Shown here: in pieces, positions 45,948-56,743 of the stretch | How the letters are laid out: every line of letters starts with the position of its first letter | How positions within the stretch are numbered: the stretch's first letter is position 1 | Origin: Bradyrhizobium sp. NFR13 | GTDB taxonomy: Bacteria > Pseudomonadota > Alphaproteobacteria > Rhizobiales > Xanthobacteraceae | Reading direction: 5' to 3' | NCBI RefSeq assembly: GCF_900114605.1 | Contig: NZ_FOTP01000001.1 | Coordinates: forward strand, 1,178,001-1,242,000 | DNA: 64,000 nucleotides | Position numbers and translations under genes: made by a program | The notes under the pieces: generated by a model | The model's input: the letters and a program-made list of their open reading frames with translations, nothing else | Database searches by the model: none | Told to the model about the DNA's origin: nothing

Positions 45948-48092
45948 TTACTCGGCTGCCGGAGCAGCTTCGGCCTTCTGCTTGGCTTCGAGGTCTTCGC
46001 CGGTCTCCTGATCGACAGCCTTCATCGACAAACGCGTCTTGCCGCGATCGTCGAAGCCGAGCAGCTTGACCTTGACCTTGTCGCCTTCCTTGACGACGTC
46101 GGAGGTCTTCTGCACGCGGCCGCCGGCGAGCTGGCTGATGTGAACCAGACCGTCCTTGGCGCCGAAGAAGTTCACGAATGCACCGAACTCCATGACCTTG
46201 ACCACGGTACCGTCATAGATCGCATTGAGCTCCGGATCCGAAGCAATCGACTTGATCCACTTGATCGCAGCCTTGATCGACTCGCCATCGGATGAGGCCA
46301 CCTTCACGGTGCCGTCGTCTTCGATGTTGACCTTGGCGCCGGTCTTTTCGACGATCTCGCGGATCACCTTGCCGCCGGTGCCGATCACTTCACGGATCTT
46401 GTCGGTGGCGATCTTGAAGGTCTCGATGCGCGGCGCGTATTCGCCGAGCTCGGCACGGGCATTGTTGAGCGCCTTCGACATCTCACCGAGAATGTGGATG
46501 CGGCCTTCCTTGGCCTGACCCAGAGCGACCTTCATGATCTCTTCGGTGATACCGGCGATCTTGATGTCCATCTGCAGCGAGGTGATGCCGGTATCGGTAC
46601 CAGCCACCTTGAAGTCCATGTCGCCGAGGTGATCTTCATCACCCAGGATGTCCGACAGAACCGCGTAGCGCGAACCTTCAAGGATAAGGCCCATGGCGAT
46701 ACCCGCCGTCGGCCGCTTCATCGGAACGCCCGCATCCATCAGCGCCAGCGAAGCGCCGCAGACCGACGCCATCGACGACGAACCGTTGGACTCGGTGATT
46801 TCCGACACCACGCGCACCGTGTACGGGAATTCGTGATGACCCGGCAGAACCGGATGGATCGCGCGCCAGGCGAGCTTGCCGTGGCCGATTTCGCGACGCT
46901 TGGTGCCGCCCATGCGACCGGTCTCGCCGACCGAGTAGGGAGGGAAGTTGTAGTGCAGCAGGAACGTCTCTTTGTACGTTCCCGACAGCGAGTCGATGTA
47001 CTGCTCGTCTTCACCGGTGCCGAGCGTGGTCACAACCAGCGCCTGGGTTTCACCGCGGGTGAACAGTGCCGAGCCGTGGGCGCGCGGCAGCACGCCAACT
47101 TCAGCAACGATCGGACGAACCGTGGTCAGGTCGCGGCCGTCGATGCGCTTCTTGGTGTCGAGGATGTTCCAGCGAACGATCTTCGATTCCAGTTCCTTGA
47201 ACACGGCGGCGATGCGGAGCTTGTCGTATTTCGGCTCCTGGCCTTCCGGGAAGTAGTGCGCGATCGCCTTGGCCTTGACGTTGGCGACGGCGGCATAGCG
47301 GTCCTGCTTCACAGGGATCGCGTAGGCAGCACGCAGCTCGGACTCGACGAGACCGAGCATTTCTTTCTCGATTTCGCTGTCATCGATGGTTTTGACCTCG
47401 CGCGGCTCCTTGGCGGCCTTCTCGGCGAGTTCGATGATCGCCTTGATGACCGGCTGGAAGTGGCGGTGACCGAACATCACGGCGCCGAGCATCACGTCTT
47501 CGTTGAGCTCCTTGGCTTCCGATTCCACCATCAGCACGGCGTCGGCGGTGCCGGCGACGACGAGGTCGAGATTGCTGTCGGCCATTTCGTCGAGGGTCGG
47601 GTTGAGGACGTATTCATCATTGATGAAGCCGACGCGGGCCGCACCGATCGGGCCCTGGAACGGGGCGCCGGAAATCGTCAACGCAGCCGAGGTGGCGACG
47701 AGCGCAAGAATGTCCGGATCGTTTTCCATGTCGTGCGACAGCACGGTGACGACGATCTGGGTTTCGTTGCGCCAGCCGTCGACGAACAGCGGGCGGATCG
47801 GACGGTCGATCAGGCGGGAGACCAGCGTCTCCTTCTCGGTCGGACGACCTTCGCGCTTGAAGTAGCCACCGGGAATGCGGCCGGCTGCGTAGGTCTTCTC
47901 GATGTAGTCGACGGTCAGCGGCAGGAAGTCGATGCCGTCCTTGGCAGTCTTCGCAGCGACGACGGTGGCGATAACGACGGTCTCGCCATAGGTGGCGATG
48001 ACGGCGCCGTCAGCCTGACGGGCAACCTTGCCGGTTTCCAGCTTGAGCGGACGACCGCCCCAATCGATCTCGACGGAGTGAACATTAAACAT
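45948..48092 (-). CDS. pnp: polyribonucleotide nucleotidyltransferase
   Basis: 714 aa phosphorolytic 3'-5' exoribonuclease, a trimer in the RNA degradosome. Two RNase PH-like domains flank an all-helical linker (first has DRPIRPLF, second has [14 protein letters not shown]). They are followed by a KH domain ([12 protein letters not shown]) and an S1 domain ([17 protein letters not shown]). The length is normal. It follows rpsO with a 306-base leader on the same strand, as in most proteobacteria. Confidence 0.97.
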
Positions 48093-48398
48093 CTTAGGTT
48101 TCTTTCATGGGTTCACGGAGGACGTGACGGCCAAAAACACAAAAGCCATGCGCAAGACGGCAAGAAGCTGCTCGCGATGTCGCGAAATCAGCGTCCGGCG
48201 ATCCTGCCATGGCTCTGGTATTCTGAATGGCGTCCATCCTTCCGATGGTCGCGGGGATCTTTGGAGGATCGCACCGCGCGACGGGCACCTTGCCCGTCAT
48301 CGTCCAGTTGCCGGATTGCTTCTGAACGTTATCGCGAAAGCCGCACATGGCTTCCGCTACAAAAAACGCGCGCAAGGAACTTGCGCGCGTGATTTCGC
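48093..48398 (-). promoter_or_regulatory. pnp leader region with stem-loops
   Basis: Between rpsO and pnp on the minus strand, the region holds the rpsO terminator and then a leader. Two hairpins are seen: GCGGAAGCC/GGCTTTCGC near 48340-48360 (imperfect) and GACGGGC/GCCCGTC at 48280-48298. In Escherichia coli the pnp leader is cut by RNase III and controls PNPase synthesis; a similar role here is inference. No gene was found. Confidence 0.45.
48360..48390 (-). terminator. intrinsic terminator of rpsO
   Basis: A perfect 11-bp stem ACGCGCGCAAG/CTTGCGCGCGT with a 3-base loop and a T-run on the minus strand, just after rpsO. Confidence 0.9.
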
Positions 48399-48668
48399 TT
48401 AACGGCGAATGTTGTGCTTCTCGAGCAGCGCCTTGTAGCGCGCCTCGTCCTTGCGCTTGATGTAGTCAAGCAGCGAGCGACGGGTGGAGACGAGCTTCAG
48501 GAGGCCACGACGGGAGTGATTGTCCTTGGTGTGGGTCTTGAAGTGTCCGGTCAGGTTGGCGATGCGCTCGGAGAGGATCGCAACCTGGACTTCCGGCGAA
48601 CCTGTGTCGCCGGCCTTGTTGGCATTGGTCTTGATGACTTCCGCTTTGCGTTCTGCGGTAATCGACAT
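48399..48668 (-). CDS. rpsO: 30S ribosomal protein S15
   Basis: 89 aa. [28 protein letters not shown] and [18 protein letters not shown] are diagnostic. It binds the central domain of 16S rRNA. It lies two bases after truB, forming the usual truB-rpsO-pnp order. Confidence 0.97.
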
Positions 48669-48670
48669 CG

Positions 48671-49831
48671 TCAGTTACTTTCTTTGCGAGCCGAACTGGC
48701 GGTCAGTCCGGTCAGGTTAAACACGCGCTTGGGGATGAGTTCGCCATTGCCAACTTCAGCGAGGGCCAATAATCGCCCTGCCACCGTGACATAAACTGTG
48801 CCGCTACAATCGGGCGCATCCCGTCCGCGCAACAAAACGGCCTGGCCCCGATGGAGCCTTGCCGCATCCGCCCGTGTGACGGCCAGTGCCGGGATGTCGT
48901 CCAGCGCGGTCTCAACGGGCAGTAGCGCGTCGGCGAGGCTCCCCTCGCCAGACGCGGCTCTATCGCACAAAGCCTCCAACTGTTCCAGCGGAATCATGTC
49001 GGCTTCTGCGAAAGGTCCGACCAGGGTGCGACGGAGCGCACTGATATGGCCGTAGCAGCCGAGCAAACGGCCGATATCGCGGGCCAGCGCGCGCACATAG
49101 GTGCCCTTGCCGCACTCGGCCTCGAACACGGCATGGTCGTTATCTGGCTGTTCTGTAAGGACTAATTCATGAATCACGACCGGCCGGGGAACCAGCGGCA
49201 CCACCTCGCCGTCGCGGGCGAGGTCATAGGCGCGCTCGCCCTGGATCTTGATTGCCGAGTATTGCGGCGGGGTCTGTTCGATATTGCCGGTAAATTGCGG
49301 CAGCAGTGCCCGGATCTGGTCGGCCGTTGGCCTATTCGGGCTGGTGAAGGTCACCCGCCCCTCGGTGTCGTCGGTATCGCGCTCCTCGCCCCAGGCCACC
49401 GTGAAGCGATAGCGCTTGCGGCCGTCCATCACGAACGGAACCGTCTTGGTGGCTTCGCCCAGCGCGATCGGCAGACCGCCGGAGGCCAGGGGATCCAAGG
49501 TACCGGCATGGCCGGCGCGCTTGGCCTGGAACAGGCGCTTGGCAACCGCGACCGCCTGGGTGGAGGTCATGCCGATCGGCTTGTCGAGGATCACCCAGCC
49601 ATGGACGTCGCGCTTGTCGCGCCGGACCTGACCCTGCTGACGCTGCTTGCCGCCCTGATGGCGCGGATCGTTGTTGCCGCGATGGCCCTGATGCGGACGT
49701 TGGTTATTGCCGCCGCGGTCACCTTGCTGACCGTGGTCGCCGTGCTGCACAGCCGGAGACAGGGTGGCCTCGCCATTGCCCGCTTCATCGAGGCGTGAAT
49801 CGAGGGCGGCGGCTGGTGTCGTCACAGTCAT
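48671..49831 (-). CDS. truB: tRNA pseudouridine-55 synthase with N-terminal extension
   Basis: 386 aa. The catalytic domain begins near residue 77 ([18 protein letters not shown]), with Asp113 in [11 protein letters not shown], and ends with a PUA-like C-terminus. It makes pseudouridine 55 in the T-loop of tRNAs. The first 75 residues are an extra disordered segment rich in Gly, Gln, His, Asn and Arg, absent from typical TruB of about 300 aa; it may bind RNA. The ATG overlaps the rbfA stop (ATGA). An internal start nearer the domain cannot be excluded. Confidence 0.93.
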
Positions 49832-50244
49832 TCGTTTTCGTCCGAGTCTGGTTTGAGGTCGCGCGCAACGGCAGGCGTGCGCAGAAGTTTGTCGATGCGC
49901 TCGGCTTCGTCGAAGCGCTCATCGATGCGGAAGCGGAGATCGGGGGCGTATTTGAGGTTCACGCGATGCGCAGCCTCGGTTCGCAGGAAGCTCTTGTTCG
50001 CCGCGAGCGCCTTCAGCACCGGTTCGGTGTTCTGGCCGCCAAGTGGCATCACATAAACGGTGGCGAGCTTGAGATCGGGGGACATCTTCACCTCCGGCAC
50101 GGTGATGATGGTGGTCGCCAGGACGGGATCGTGGACCCCACCTTGCGACAGGATATCGGCGATCGCATGACGCATCAGCTCGCCGACACGCAGCTGACGC
50201 TGCGAGCCGCCCGGCGCCGCGGACTTCTGGTGATGCTTGGGCAT
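49828..50244 (-). CDS. rbfA: ribosome-binding factor A
   Basis: 138 aa KH-like protein needed for late 30S maturation and cold adaptation. [17 protein letters not shown] and VMPLGGQN are family features. The start at 50244 has AGGGA upstream; the eight-codon extension is unlikely. It is followed by truB with a 4-base overlap, but separated from infB by about 150 bases holding two palindromes. Confidence 0.94.
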
Positions 50245-50270
50245 CAGTTTCCCTGTCAAAAACAACATAC

Positions 50271-50393: not shown

Positions 50394-53174
50394 TTACAGG
50401 GAGCGCTGGATGGTCTCTACGCGGTAACACTCGATCACGTCGCCGGCGCGCATGTCGCCGTAGTTCTCGAACGCCATGCCGCATTCCTGGCCTGACGCCA
50501 CTTCCTTCACTTCGTCCTTGAAGCGCTTCAGTGTCGACAGCTTGCCTTCGTGCACAACGACGTTGTCGCGGATCAGGCGCACATTCGCGCCGCGTTCCAC
50601 GGTTCCGTCGGTGACACGGCAACCCGCAACCTTGCCGACCTTGGAGATGTTGAACACTTCCAGGATCTGCGCATTGCCCAGCATGGTTTCGCGCAACGTC
50701 GGCGCGAGCAGACCGGACATGGCCTTCTTCACGTCATCCACGAGGTCGTAGATGATGTTGTAGTAGCGGATTTCGATGCCGTTGCGCTTGGCAGCGGCAG
50801 CGGCTTCCTTGTTGGCACGAACCGAGAAGCCGATGATGGCGGCGTTGAAGCCTTCCGCCAGTGTGACGTCCGATTCCGAAATGCCGCCGACGCCCGCATG
50901 CAGGATGCGCGCAGCGACCTCGTCGGTGCCGAGCTTCTCGAGCGAGCCGAGAATGGCTTCGAGCGAACCCTGCACGTCGGCCTTGATGATCAGCGGGAAG
51001 TCCTTGCGACCCGAGGTCTTCAGCTGGCTCATCATCTGCTCGAGCGAGCCACGCATGCCGGAGGCGGAGGCAGCGGACTTCTCGCGCTTCTGATGCGCGC
51101 GATAGCTGGTGATTTCGCGGGCGCGGGCTTCATTCTCGACCACCGCCATACGATCGCCAGCTTCCGGCGGACCGTTGAAACCGAGCACTTCGACCGGCAC
51201 CGACGGACCTGCTTCGGTCAGCGTCTCGCCCTGATCGGAGATCAGCGCGCGGACACGGCCCATTTCTGCGCCGGCCACGATGATGTCGCCAACACGCAGG
51301 GTGCCGCGCTGAACCAGCACGGTCGCCACCGGACCACGGCCACGATCGAGCTTGGCTTCGATCACGGTACCTTCCGCCGGACGTTCCGAATTGGTCTTCA
51401 GGTCGAGAATATCGGCCTGCAGCGCGATCATTTCGAGCAGCTTGTCGAGATTGGTCTTGTTCTTCGCTGACACTTCGACGTCAACGACATCGCCGCCGAA
51501 GGATTCGACCTGCACATCATGCTGCAGCAACTCGGTGCGCACGCGCTCCGGCTTGGCGTCAGGCTTGTCGATCTTGTTGATTGCCACGATGATCGGCACG
51601 CCGGCAGCCTTGGCGTGGTTGATGGCTTCGACGGTCTGCGGCATGACGCCGTCATCGGCGGCCACCACCAGGATGACGATATCCGTGACCTTGGCGCCGC
51701 GGGCGCGCATCGCGGTGAACGCAGCATGGCCGGGCGTATCGATGAAGGTGATCTTCTTGCCGCTCTCGGGCGACATGACCTGATAAGCACCGATATGCTG
51801 GGTGATGCCGCCGGCTTCGCCGGACACCACATTGGCATGGCGCAGCGCGTCAAGCAGCGAGGTCTTGCCGTGGTCGACGTGGCCCATGACGGTCACGACC
51901 GGCGAACGCGGCTCGGTATCGGTGGAATCGTCGACAACGTCGAACAGACCTTCTTCGACGTCCGATTCGGCGACGCGCTTGACCGTGTGGCCCATTTCTT
52001 CGGCCACCAGCTGCGCGGTGTCGGCATCGATGACGTCGTTGATCTTGTGGATCGCACCCTGCTTCATCAGCAGGCGGATCACGTCCACGGCGCGCTCGGC
52101 CATACGGTTGGCGAGCTCCTGAATCGTGATCGCTTCCGGGATCGTGACTTCACGAACCAGCTTTTCCTTCGGTTCGTTCGACTGATGACCCTTCAGGCGC
52201 TGGGTGCGGCGACGGAACGAGGCGATCGAACGCTCACGCACGTCGTCGGCCGACAGCGCGGTGACGACCGTGAGACGGCCGCGCTGCTTCTGCGGACCGG
52301 GCTTTGCGGTCGGCTTGGGCGCGATGACCGGACGCGCGGCGCCACCGGGACCACGGCGAATCGTACGCGGACCTTCATCCTCGTCGGAACCATCGGCGGC
52401 AACACCTGGCGCGCGCGCCGGCGTAGCGGCCGTTGCACCGGGACGGGCCGTCGTCGTAGCCGGCTTGGCGGCCTTCGCATCGGCTTCAGCCTGACGGCGC
52501 TTGGCCTCGACTTCGGCGCGGCGCTTGGCTTCCTCTTCCTGACGGTGACGCTCTTCCTCGGCCTTGCGACGGGCTTCGGCGGCTTCACGCTCTTCCTGTT
52601 CCTTGAATTCCTTGGTGTTGCGGCGCGCAGCCTCGAGCTCGGCGAGACGACGCTCTTCCTGCTCGCGCACGCGGGCATCGGCCAGCGCGCTGGCGCGGGC
52701 ATTGCGCTCTTCCTCGGTCAGGGTGCGGAGCACGACGCCCGAACCCGAACGGGCCGGCGGCTGCGGGCGCTGCGGCGCGCGCGACGGCGCTGCGGGTGCC
52801 GGGGCTGAGCTGCGCCCTGCGGGAGAAGGTGCAGCAGTACGGGGAGCCGGTGCGGCCGGTGCAGGCGCAGCAGCGCGCGCAACCGGCGCCGCGGGCGCAG
52901 CAGTTGCAGCGGGAGCAGCCGGCGCAGCAGCAACGGGAGCAGGTGCAGCGGTCACGACAGGCGCGGGAGCAGCCGATGCCGGAGCGGCAGCGGGCGCAGC
53001 AGCCGGCGCATCGCCGGGCATGCGTCGCTTGCCGCGCTTCTCGACCACCACCTGCTTGGTGCGGCCATGGCTGAAGCTCTGGCGCACAGTGCCCTGCTCG
53101 ACGCGCGGCTTGAGCGTCAAGGTCTTGCTGGGAACGCTCAGAGTCTTGTCGCCAGGCGTTTTCGTATCAACCAT
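50394..53174 (-). CDS. infB: translation initiation factor IF-2
   Basis: 926 aa GTPase that places initiator tRNA on the 30S subunit. The long N-terminal part is Ala/Pro-rich (about 55-140), then a charged Glu/Arg/Lys coiled-coil-like stretch (155-235). The G domain begins at [10 protein letters not shown] (431-440), with DTPGHAAF and INKIDK following; domains II-IV complete the protein. It lies nine bases after the ylxR-like gene. The size is normal for alphaproteobacteria. Confidence 0.97.
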
Positions 53175-53183
53175 TCAGCAGTC

Positions 53184-53972
53184 CTAATCTTGTTGCGTTG
53201 TGCGCGGTCGCACAGTCGTCGAAGTTTCGATCAGTGAGATCGTTGGTGTCAGCGGCGCCGGTTCCGGCGCAGCGGTTGTCAGCGAAGCTTTGGCGCTTGC
53301 GTTGATGTCGTCGTCGGCCAGCCGGTATTGGACCAGAGTCTGGCTGCGTGACAGGAACGTTTTGCCCGCCGGGCCCGTAAGCACGGCAGCATGTATCACA
53401 TTTGACCGCCCCAATGCCAAATCCAATTCATCGGAGCTCAAAACCGTAATAATCGGCATTTGTCCCGCGTCGTCGCCGGATTCCGCATCAAATTCCACGC
53501 GTTGGCGGGCAATGCCGTCGAGTTTGCGGATTCCGTCGGCGGCGCCGTCGGAGGCATGGAGCAGAACACCTACCGTTCCGCGGCGCAGGGCGTCCTCGAC
53601 CTTGGTGAAACCGGAAACCACCTGACCGGCCTTGGCGGTCATGGCCAGCGCCTCGATGACGCCGCGCACCATGAGCTTGTCGGTGTCGTCGGCCAGGGTT
53701 GGCGACGATTTAACGGCTTTCTTGAAGCCCTTGGCGAAAAGATTGCGCTTGGCCGCCTCGGCGACCGCCTTGCGGGAGGCGGTAACCCAGAGGCCGCGGC
53801 CGGGAAGCTTGCGCTTCAGATCGGGAATCGCCTCGCCCGTGGGCGCAACGACGAACCGGATCAGATCGTCGATCGGGCGCACGCTCCGCGTGACCACGCA
53901 CATCCGCATCGTCCCGGGCTTGGTGCTCCGGGGGCCGTTGTCCAGATCTGCTTGGTCAGCAATGGCGAGCAT
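53184..53972 (-). CDS. YlxR-family RNA-binding protein with L7Ae-like extension
   Basis: 262 aa. The N-terminal YlxR (DUF448) domain has MCVVTRSVRP and PGRGLWVTASRKAV. An L7Ae/YlxQ-like part follows (about 95-190), with KAGQVVSGFTKVEDALRRG and VLLHASDGAADG. It is a fused YlxR-YlxQ protein of the nusA-infB operon, a putative RNA-binding helper of translation or transcription. The ATG at 53972 avoids overlap with nusA, though a start inside nusA is possible. Confidence 0.85.
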   Translation of the reverse strand: MLAIADQADLDNGPRSTKPGTMRMCVVTRSVRPIDDLIRFVVAPTGEAIPDLKRKLPGRGLWVTASRKAVAEAAKRNLFAKGFKKAVKSSPTLADDTDKLMVRGVIEALAMTAKAGQVVSGFTKVEDALRRGTVGVLLHASDGAADGIRKLDGIARQRVEFDAESGDDAGQMPIITVLSSDELDLALGRSNVIHAAVLTGPAGKTFLSRSQTLVQYRLADDDINASAKASLTTAAPEPAPLTPTISLIETSTTVRPRTTQQD

Positions 53973-53988
53973 GCGCGTGGCATTGTCC

Positions 53989-55593
53989 TTACGCTTCTTC
54001 GGTGGCGTCGAGCACGGCACCCTTGTCGAGATCGGCCTGGGTGATCCAGCCGGCCACGACGCGGGCCTGCATGATCAGCTGTTCGGCGTCTTCACGCGAA
54101 ATCTCGCTGGCATCGAGAATGCCCGGGTGCTTGGTCGGCTCGGAACCTTCCTTGCGCTCGGTCCAGCCGACGAGATCGTCGGTGGCACAGCCGGCGAGAT
54201 CCTCGACGGTCTTGATGTCGTTTTCGCCGAACTTGACCATCATCTTGAGGGTCACGCCCGGAACATCCTTCAAAGCGTCTTCCACACCCAGTTCCTTACG
54301 TTTGCCTTCGAGTTCAGCTTCGAGCTGCTCGAGGTATTCACGTGCACGGCTCTGCAATTCGGCCGCTGTTTCGTCGTCGAAGCCCTCGATGCTGGCCAGT
54401 TCCTTGGCATCGACCATCGAGAGTTCTTCCACCGAGGTGAAACCTTCCGACGCGAGCAGCTGACCGACGACTTCGTCGACGTTCAACGCTTCCATGAAGA
54501 CGCGCGTGGAATTTTCGAAATCGGCCTGGCGACGTTCGGATTCTTCCTGCTCGGTCAGGATGTCGATATCCCAACCGGTCAGCTGCGAAGCCAGGCGCAC
54601 ATTCTGGCCGCGACGACCGATCGCAAGGGATAGCTGGTTATTCGTGTCGGGAACGACAACCTCGATGCGCTCACGATCTTCATCGATCACGACTTTCGAG
54701 ACTTCTGCCGGCGCCAGCGCGTTCACCACGAATGTGGCGATATCCGGCGACCACGGAATGATGTCGATCTTTTCGCCCTGCAGCTCGTTGACCACGGCCT
54801 GCACGCGGGAACCACGCATACCGACGCAGGCGCCGACCGGATCCACCGACGAGTCGCGCGAGATCACGCCGATCTTCGCACGCGAACCGGGATCGCGGGC
54901 CACAGCCTTGATCTCGACGATACCGTCATAGATTTCAGGCACTTCCTGCGCGAACAGCTTGGCCATGAATTGCGGATGAGTGCGCGACAGGAAAATCTGC
55001 GGACCGCGGGTCTCGCGGCGCACGTCGAACACATAGGCGCGAACGCGGTCGCCGTTGCGGAACACTTCGCGCGGCAGCATCTCGTCGCGACGCACGATGG
55101 CTTCGCTACGGCCGAGATCGACGATCACCGAACCGTATTCGACGCGCTTGACGATGCCGTTGACGATCTCGCCGATGCGATCCTTGAATTCCTGGTACTG
55201 CCGGTCACGCTCGGCTTCGCGCACCTTCTGCACGATGACCTGCTTGGCGGACTGCGCAGCGATACGGCCATATTCCAGCGGCGGCAGCGTGTCGGCGATG
55301 GTATCGCCGATCTGCGCACCCGGATTGGCGCGCTGCGCATCATGCAGCGAAATCTGGAAAGACGAATTCTCGACGTCCTCGACCACCAGCATGTGGCGGG
55401 TCAGCGAGAGCTGGCCGGTCTTGGGATGAATCTCGGCATGAACGTCGGTTTCGGAGCCGTAACGGGCACGGGCCGCTTTCGCGATCGCCTCTTCCATCGC
55501 CTGGATGACGATGTTGCGGTCGATCGATTTTTCACGTGCGACGGCGTCGGCGATCTGCAGCAGTTCGAGTTTATTGGCGCTGACAGCGGCCAT
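53989..55593 (-). CDS. nusA: transcription termination/antitermination protein NusA
   Basis: 534 aa. Domain order: N-terminal RNA-polymerase-binding region, S1 domain (about 135-200), two KH domains (around [12 protein letters not shown] and [16 protein letters not shown]), and C-terminal helix-hairpin-helix repeats. It acts in pausing, termination and antitermination. It may feed back on its own operon through the attenuator upstream of rimP. It follows rimP by three bases. Confidence 0.97.
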
Positions 55594-55596
55594 GGC

Positions 55597-56376
55597 TCAT
55601 TCTCCTTCGATGGGATCGATTTCGCCTCGACGCGCACGCTCGGCGGCCAGACGATGTTCTTTGGTATTCTTCGGCAAAGGCTTCTTGGCAGCTTTCGCAG
55701 CCTTGAGTTTCGGCTTCGGCGCAAAGCTCTTCTTGGGATCGCTGCGCTTGGCATGCGGCGCCGGCGGCGGCGCGAGACCCAGCTGCTGCTTCAAGTCGCG
55801 CTCGGCCTGCTTGCCGCGGCGCATGGACTCGGCGATCAATTCGTCAGTCAGCACCAGGCTGGCATTGGAGATGTCTTCCAGCGGCAACCGCGTGATGGGG
55901 TCCTCGCCGTCGCGGGCGCCTTCGCGTTCGATCAGAACGACATCACCCTCAATGGCGCCGAGCGTGCCACGGAAACGTTTGCGGCCACCGACGGCGACAG
56001 CCATCTCGATCTTAACCAGATAACCATTATAGCGCTCGAAATCGGAGCGTCGCACCAGCGGACGATCGATGCCGGGCGAGGAAATCTCAAGCCGATAGGC
56101 GCGCTGGATCGGATCGGCGACATCCATCACCGGCGACAGCGCGTGCGAGATCGCCTCGCAGTCCTCGACCAGCATGGTACCATCGGGTCGCTCTGCCATG
56201 ATCTGCACGGTGCAGCCGAGCTCGCCGGAAATCTTGATCCGCACCAGCCGGTAACCCATGGCTTCGAGTACCGGCGTAGCCACAGCCGACACCCGCGCCG
56301 CAGCACCCGGCTCGATCACCAGGCGCGGCTCGGAAAGCAGCTCGGTATCAACGGTTTCTGGCTTCTGGTCGGTCAT
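55597..56376 (-). CDS. rimP: ribosome maturation factor RimP
   Basis: 259 aa. The core shows [49 protein letters not shown] and [10 protein letters not shown], as expected. The last 70 residues or so are an Ala/Lys/Arg-rich extension with many basic residues ([16 protein letters not shown]), common in this family of bacteria and absent from enterobacterial RimP. It assists 30S maturation. It is the first gene of the operon, with a long leader. Confidence 0.94.
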
Positions 56377-56514
56377 GTGAGGATCGAAATATTCCGGTTC
56401 GAGGATGTCTGAATGCGCGTGCAGCCTGTAGATCGTGTGTCGCGTCGGGCTTTCGGCCCTTCATTAGCCCCGTACGAGTCAGGCCCGGAGATCACCGGCC
56501 AAGGTCCGTTCAGG

Positions 56515-56548
56515 TAATAAAAAAGAGCGGGTCCCGAGGGGCCCACTC
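56515..56548 (-). promoter_or_regulatory. leader terminator/attenuator of the rimP-nusA-infB operon
   Basis: On the minus strand GAGTGGGCCC-CTCG-GGACCCGCTC forms a stem with one mismatch, followed at once by TTTTTTA. It has full intrinsic-terminator form but sits between the predicted promoter and rimP, about 140 bases before the gene. It therefore probably attenuates the operon. A second small hairpin GGGC-CGAAA-GCCC lies further downstream in the leader. Confidence 0.75.
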
Positions 56549-56586
56549 TCAAACGCGATCGTATGAGAACCTAATAAGTTGTGGGC

Positions 56587-56615
56587 GATATAGCCGTTTT
56601 CCGGCACCCCGGCAA
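56587..56615 (-). promoter_or_regulatory. promoter of the rimP operon
   Basis: TTGCCG (56610-56615) and TATATC (56587-56592) are separated by exactly 17 bases. Transcription would start near 56580, about 200 bases ahead of rimP and before the attenuator hairpin. It is the best promoter-like sequence seen in the window. Confidence 0.7.
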
Positions 56616-56743
56616 GGCCGCAATGGCTGCTCCGCAATATTTCTGCAACCCGCGGTAGCCCAATCCTGCGGACTAACCGTTCCTTCATCAACGCCATCTA
56701 GGGTGCGTCAGCCTTTCCGTAGGGTGGTGTTGAGTATTGTTTG

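Follow-up and report, generated by a model that had tools for sequence, protein, structure and literature searches.

A putative rimP-leader attenuator ahead of the rimP-nusA-ylxR-infB operon of Bradyrhizobium sp. NFR13 and its form in the Rhizobiales

Described rimP leaders and the leader of Bradyrhizobium sp. NFR13

The rimP-leader was defined by Naville and Gautheret in 2010 as an element upstream of the rimP-nusA-infB operon and was called the most ubiquitous attenuator at that time; the part of the paper considered here names Gammaproteobacteria and Firmicutes as its groups (PMC2965389). From the conservation of its stem, the same authors argued for recognition by a protein and suggested NusA or, less likely, RimP (PMC2965389). 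For B. subtilis, NusA is reported to control its own expression by stimulating termination in the 5' leader (Mondal 2016, via the review PMC12288461). For the S. agalactiae operon gbs0413-gbs0418, a short leader RNA ends 31 nt after a start common to the long transcript, and feedback by NusA was proposed (PMC4448216). The E. coli metY-rimP leader carries two terminators, t1 and t2, before rimP, and the operon's transcript levels are raised in mutants in which NusA brings about less termination (PMC6511841).

The window analysed here is a stretch of 64,000 nucleotides from Bradyrhizobium sp. NFR13 (contig NZ_FOTP01000001.1, positions 1,178,001 to 1,242,000). On its minus strand, a promoter-like pair with a spacer of 17 bases on direct reading is followed by a terminator-like hairpin with the arms AGAGTGGG...CCCGCTCT (56549-56524), a T-run and the rimP operon. 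The features, in the order of transcription, are as follows.

56610-56615, minus strand: -35 hexamer TTGCCG, read in the sequence; CTTG is kept in the 80-locus alignment
56587-56592, minus strand: -10 hexamer TATATC, read in the sequence; GCTATATc is largely kept in the 80-locus alignment
56548-56567, minus strand: P1 hairpin CUCAUACGAUCGCGUUUGAG, from the alignment and folding energies; abuts and overlaps the terminator base
56524-56549, minus strand: terminator-like hairpin AGAGUGGGCCC-CUC-GGGACCCGCUCU; the stem has a U.G wobble, carries a bulged A and is nearly invariant
56519-56524, minus strand: T-run (U-tract) of six T, the first of which doubles as the stem-closing base; found in 80/80 related loci
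56511-56518, minus strand: octamer ATTACCTG immediately after the T-run, conserved in the family
56377-56510, minus strand: remaining rimP 5' untranslated region; conservation in the 80-locus alignment is lower over roughly its first 40 bases
55597-56376, minus strand: rimP (NF000933, 472.5 bits)
53989-55593, minus strand: nusA, the second gene (TIGR01953, 436.1 bits)
53184-54020, minus strand: gene of a ylxR-type RNA-binding protein (NF006622, 288.1 bits; PF04296 YlxR)
50394-53174, minus strand: infB (TIGR00487, 779.4 bits)
45948-50268, minus strand: rbfA, truB, rpsO and pnp, continuing the gene order from infB

Transcription would start near 56580, and the predicted short product of the leader, from the promoter-like pair to the terminator-like hairpin, is about 60 nt long. 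The initial annotation had described the same promoter, which direct reading confirms, and had placed the first gene about 140 bases beyond the T-run; indeed, the rimP ATG (56376) lies 142 bases past it. The hairpin and T-run that it had put about 30 bases after the promoter are present, but the distance from the -10 hexamer to the hairpin is 37 bases. The P1 hairpin overlapping the terminator base was absent from that annotation. Judging by the gene order, a shared transcript might perhaps reach rbfA-truB-rpsO-pnp. The upstream neighbour is a DUF2336 gene diverging from the rimP leader; since it points away on the plus strand, no gene of the same strand is seen whose 3' end the hairpin would be. 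A 72-aa ORF at 56479-56697, which begins upstream of the promoter and has no Pfam match, was discarded.

Comparison with the published rimP-leader revealed a shared hairpin with a G-rich 5' arm and a C-rich 3' arm followed by a U-stretch, a conserved stem and the same position before the operon (PMC2965389). The initial annotation had remarked that leader attenuation of rimP operons had been proposed in other bacteria. Some specific traits differ from what that paper describes. For instance, the distance to the gene is 142 nt in the window versus 4-130 nt, and the published GGGc(...)gCCC corresponds in the window to GGGC on the 5' side, whereas the 3' side reads GGGACCC, with an A between G and CCC; an exact GGGC..GCCC is found in several members of the class. 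The general rimP-leader is described as having no visible antiterminator, whereas P1 of the window overlaps the terminator foot, with predicted competition between the two. Unlike the published element, the form of the order is typically GAG-GUGG...CCGCUC, and members with a T-poor tail occur.

The likeness to the other systems is of a looser kind. The B. subtilis nusA leader, likened here by description only, has a leader terminator in common with the window, the effect of NusA being experimental there and proposed here. In the Firmicute S. agalactiae, as in the window, the terminator lies close behind the start, a likeness of architecture and not of terminator sequence. The E. coli leader differs in that it includes, further upstream, the tRNA gene metY, and its hairpin sequences are unlike those of the window.

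Judged from its sequence, the element is of the rimP-leader attenuator kind, in an alphaproteobacterial form that Rfam's rimP model misses. The Rfam search gave no family at its gathering score at the leader site. The rimP family RF01770 (gathering score 47), which has the operon position and the general idea in common with the window element, gave no match at the site up to E 10 in a search of the own genome, and its seven sub-threshold matches in this genome all lie elsewhere. Matches to sbrA (E 0.073) and the L20 leader (E 2.2), which align to the terminator and its tail, were rejected as weak and far under the gathering scores. The sole Rfam match of the window over its gathering score is the ffh sRNA (RF01793; 36091-36142, minus strand; 63.5 bits). 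A search of open-licence papers yielded no account of the Rhizobiales form or its T-poor members; the supplement of the 2010 paper may list alphaproteobacterial ones.

Conservation of the leader hairpin among relatives, across the order and beyond

Taken alone, a single sequence makes a modest case for the element. For the 73-nt leader the predicted folding energy is -21.3 kcal/mol (z -2.57), a value equalled by 2 of 200 shuffles, and the stability of the 245-nt leader is unremarkable (z -0.37; equalled by 71/200). Generic promoter and terminator scans reported none of either at the site; by our reading of the scan recipes, the hexamers score only 8/12, TATATC lacks a T at position 6 and the stem has a bulged A. 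It is the comparison of sequences across genomes that makes a convincing case.

A covariance model was built from 22 leaders, that of the window included. In the own genome it gave one strong match, the window site (E 3.9e-16), the next best having an E of 0.16. Among the best 80, by RimP similarity, of at least 421 rimP loci in named genome records, GACCCGCTCTTTTTT occurs exactly once before rimP in 80/80, the stretch searched being 420 nt upstream of the gene (213 in L071). In the alignment of these loci the flanks have diverged, and promoter, P1, stem and the octamer behind the T-run stand out from them; the T-run itself begins between 46 and 222 nt upstream of the RimP match. These 80 loci are near relatives and give evidence of conservation, not of independence. 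In locus L030, the terminator lies 338 bases before rimP, and a second T-run with a possible hairpin is found 50 bases before the gene. A BLAST search with the leader found matches in 38 of 61 genomes, the own one counted, the distant matches covering mostly the terminator part.

For the octamer, P1, the partner of the stem U and the reading frame, we used a leader set in which the pattern matched 143/163 loci, that is, 134 distinct leaders. The octamer ATTACCTG is conserved at 82-99% per position in 94 distinct family-rich leaders and is degenerate past its T-rich start in 39 other Rhizobiales leaders. A resembling GTTATCTG follows the first T-run in E. coli K-12 (L249, 4066-4059, minus strand); this likeness is weak outside the family and perhaps due to chance. 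Given the degeneracy in the 39 leaders, a motif shared between alpha- and gammaproteobacteria was dropped and the octamer was treated as family-specific.

The GAGAG bases with which P1 pairs also build the terminator foot; GAG is thus used twice. In the window, the full terminator has an energy of -18.1 kcal/mol and P1 with a shortened terminator one of -20.5 kcal/mol, and the three outer terminator pairs have predicted probabilities of 0.35, 0.63 and 0.84. P1 is thus predicted to compete for the lowest pairs of the terminator. It reaches -3 kcal/mol or lower in 95/95 family-rich leaders, yet also in 52% of shuffles; among the 39 other Rhizobiales leaders it reaches -3 kcal/mol in 27 and -5 kcal/mol in 22, the latter value being attained by 29% of shuffles. 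By its conserved sequence, P1 is firm in the family; beyond the family it is only suggestive.

Across the order Rhizobiales, the covariance model at E <= 0.01 gave matches in 158/249 genomes. Forty of them were fetched: 38 families contributed one each, and two were second matches. A rimP gene found by tblastn lies directly downstream on the same strand in 36 of these 40; the remaining four have no RimP match beside them, two of these being the second matches. To avoid choosing leaders by their motif, the RimP domain was used as an anchor. It located rimP in 247/249 genomes by Pfam, and 90 upstream stretches from 26 families were taken, 30 being the top-scoring loci and 60 hand-picked for spread. 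A strict pattern including the outer pairs found the hairpin in 84/90 leaders, 73 with a T-rich and 11 with a T-poor tail. The chance level, from 50 shuffles each, was 0.02 for the T-rich and 0.62 for the T-poor form (0.64 together), and a coding control gave 0/30 stretches; since this pattern was written after the same leaders had been seen with a looser one, these figures describe the leaders and give an estimate of chance but do not amount to a blind test. Under the looser pattern, T-poor hairpins occurred in 15/90 leaders versus 17.9 in shuffles and so gave no signal. A promoter-like TTG-N16-18-TA pair stands upstream of the hairpin, mostly by 25 to 60 bases, in 71 of 81 leaders versus 5.8 expected, the 81 being the 84 GTGG-pattern cores minus three with too little sequence.

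Six of the 90 leaders gave no match to the strict pattern, namely L312 and five of family f18. L312 instead has a hairpin of the form GCGGG..CCCGC, T-rich in its tail, in which a C-G pair takes the place of the U.G. Among the eight leaders of f18, the hairpin is absent by the strict pattern in L345, L348, L354, L361 and L364, is kept with its T-run in L284 and L298, and has a T-poor tail in L349. Perhaps these leaders constitute a natural loss series.

The stem itself is nearly invariant, and no pair was altered on both sides in the 22-row alignment; the fold is therefore not proven by covariation, which we do not count as support. The U of the stem faces a G in 95/95 family-rich and 37/39 other leaders and in 83/84 order-wide cores; in these counts, the search pattern itself prescribes the U. 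An A would pair better with this U, yet G is kept.

In the other alphaproteobacterial orders, 29 of the 30 top-scoring loci of the class were long enough for analysis. A GGG..CCC hairpin with a T-run was found in 18/29 of these leaders versus 0.00 in shuffles, and any hairpin with a T-run in 24/29 versus 4.65 expected. In other classes of the phylum, the GGG..CCC pattern occurred in 0/20 leaders (0.20 expected), and some hairpin with a T-run in 18/20 versus 3.95 expected; five of these leaders (L250 and L253 to L256) show GGGC...GCCC hairpins, which correspond to the motif published for rimP leaders in general. In this sample, then, a terminator in the leader of rimP is general, the version GUGGG...CCCRC with a T-run being seen in its alphaproteobacterial part. 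With the covariance model, 27/240 genomes of the class, the own one included, gave matches at E <= 0.05, many of them near chance. In the eight class genomes with both a model match and a located rimP, the two are adjacent only in G292 and G335; the match lies away from rimP in G297, G298, G320, G323, G325 and G333.

Collectively, the attenuator architecture proposed by the initial annotation is strongly supported by conservation and by operon specificity. That annotation had named the lack of a conserved stem and T-run among relatives as a refuting result, and the comparison did not refute it. The stem is kept in 84/90 leaders, but some of these keep the hairpin with no T-run, and the covariation that it had also looked to for support is absent.

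Leaders with a T-poor tail and the readings of the element

We consider it fairly probable that the element is a cis-acting transcription attenuator, in which the choice between termination in the leader and read-through would set operon expression, with NusA as the likeliest tuning factor. The start site, termination, the role of NusA as effector and the direction of control are inferred. Among the observations against it are the 11 of 90 leaders with a T-poor tail, which belong to families f16 (six), f35 (two), f45, f2 and f18 (one each). Seven of them have only one or two T in nine bases (L194, L281, L296, L310, L330, L344 and L363), so at least these can hardly terminate intrinsically; the other four are borderline, with four T in nine bases (L290, L301, L331 and L349). 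A promoter-like pair nevertheless stands upstream of the hairpin in 11/11. Twelve T-poor leaders, six from this set and six from elsewhere, were also checked singly, and the pair lies 33-51 nt before the hairpin in 11 of them, none being listed for L185. In family f35, L344, L363, L191 and L211 share an identical TGACATCGTCGACTGGCT in the stretch from promoter to hairpin, an extra conserved element of the leader. The most surprising point is that a specific stem is kept although a terminator devoid of its U-tract should decay. The persistence of hairpin and promoter in leaders with T-poor tails makes it probable that the hairpin itself is recognised.

It is possible, if doubtful, that the hairpin is in the first place a signal, for recognition or for pausing, read by a protein such as NusA, RimP, RNase III or a factor of ribosome assembly or RNA chaperoning, with intrinsic termination as one optional output and with pausing, Rho or RNA processing taking its place in lineages lacking a U-tract. 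The 11 T-poor hairpins against 0.62 in shuffles, their promoter-like pairs and the G kept opposite the stem U in 83/84 cores all favour such a signal, and Naville and Gautheret likewise reasoned from stem conservation (PMC2965389). On the other hand, the T-rich tail kept in 73/90 leaders would be needless for a pure recognition element. In E. coli, a fusion of the rimP 5' UTR and ORF is reported to have reduced rather than raised expression in a Rho mutant (PMC7815308), a result that lends no support to termination by Rho in that species. We suggest only tentatively that the conserved unit is not the terminator but a sequence-specific hairpin, likeliest a NusA-responsive hairpin pause, which most lineages would couple to a U-tract; several Rhizobiales families would have lost this tract, so that NusA or another factor would control the operon in them by pausing, Rho or RNA processing.

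Further readings are much less probable. Cold-shock antitermination, in which a CspA-type RNA chaperone melts the hairpin and lets the polymerase pass, was an earlier proposal for the E. coli operon, as mentioned in PMC6511841, but the northern data of PMC6511841 are said there not to fit its premise, and we regard this mode of control as very improbable for the window. An independent small RNA with its own terminator, merely located before rimP, could account for the promoter-like pair, the terminator-like hairpin and a product of about 60 nt; it is nonetheless very unlikely, because the hairpin precedes rimP in 84/90 RimP-anchored leaders, the position that a cis element should have. The released leader might still act in trans.

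That CGCUCUUU at the 3' arm is a boxA site bound by NusB-S10 is highly improbable and was rejected: it resembles the gammaproteobacterial consensus GYTCTTTAANA (PMC5725501), but what we read as boxA in the organism's own rRNA leader is GCTGTTTGACAAG versus CGCTCTTTTTTA here, several leaders outside the order end in CCCACTTTT instead, and PMC5725501 reports none upstream of nusA in its gammaproteobacterial genomes. A leader-peptide attenuator, which would need a conserved short frame running over the hairpin, was likewise rejected, since differences in the length of the core shift the frame: the three phases hold 82, 8 and 5 of 95 leaders in one set and 15, 13 and 11 of 39 in the other.

A possible mechanism and its meaning for the operon

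Under the favoured reading, a cis-acting attenuator, RNA polymerase would start near 56580 and synthesize a leader of about 60 nt, in which P1 would form first and the GUGGG...CCCGC hairpin afterwards. At the U-tract, transcription would either terminate, giving a short leader RNA, or read through into rimP-nusA-ylxR-infB and perhaps the genes behind. By occupying GAGAG, P1 could weaken or delay the closing of the last terminator pairs and make the terminator tunable. More NusA would then lead to more pausing and termination and to less operon mRNA. Such a negative feedback is plausible by analogy, NusA being the best candidate effector because of the B. subtilis, S. agalactiae and E. coli reports on the same operon; factors other than NusA may also act.

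The analysis adds an RNA element to a conserved core-gene operon where Rfam annotates none at the site. From the Rhizobiales set come a precise consensus, the competing P1 hairpin and natural leaders of both kinds, those that have a U-tract and those that lack it. Since these leaders separate a stable hairpin plus U-tract from a recognised sequence, the question of the effector becomes testable.
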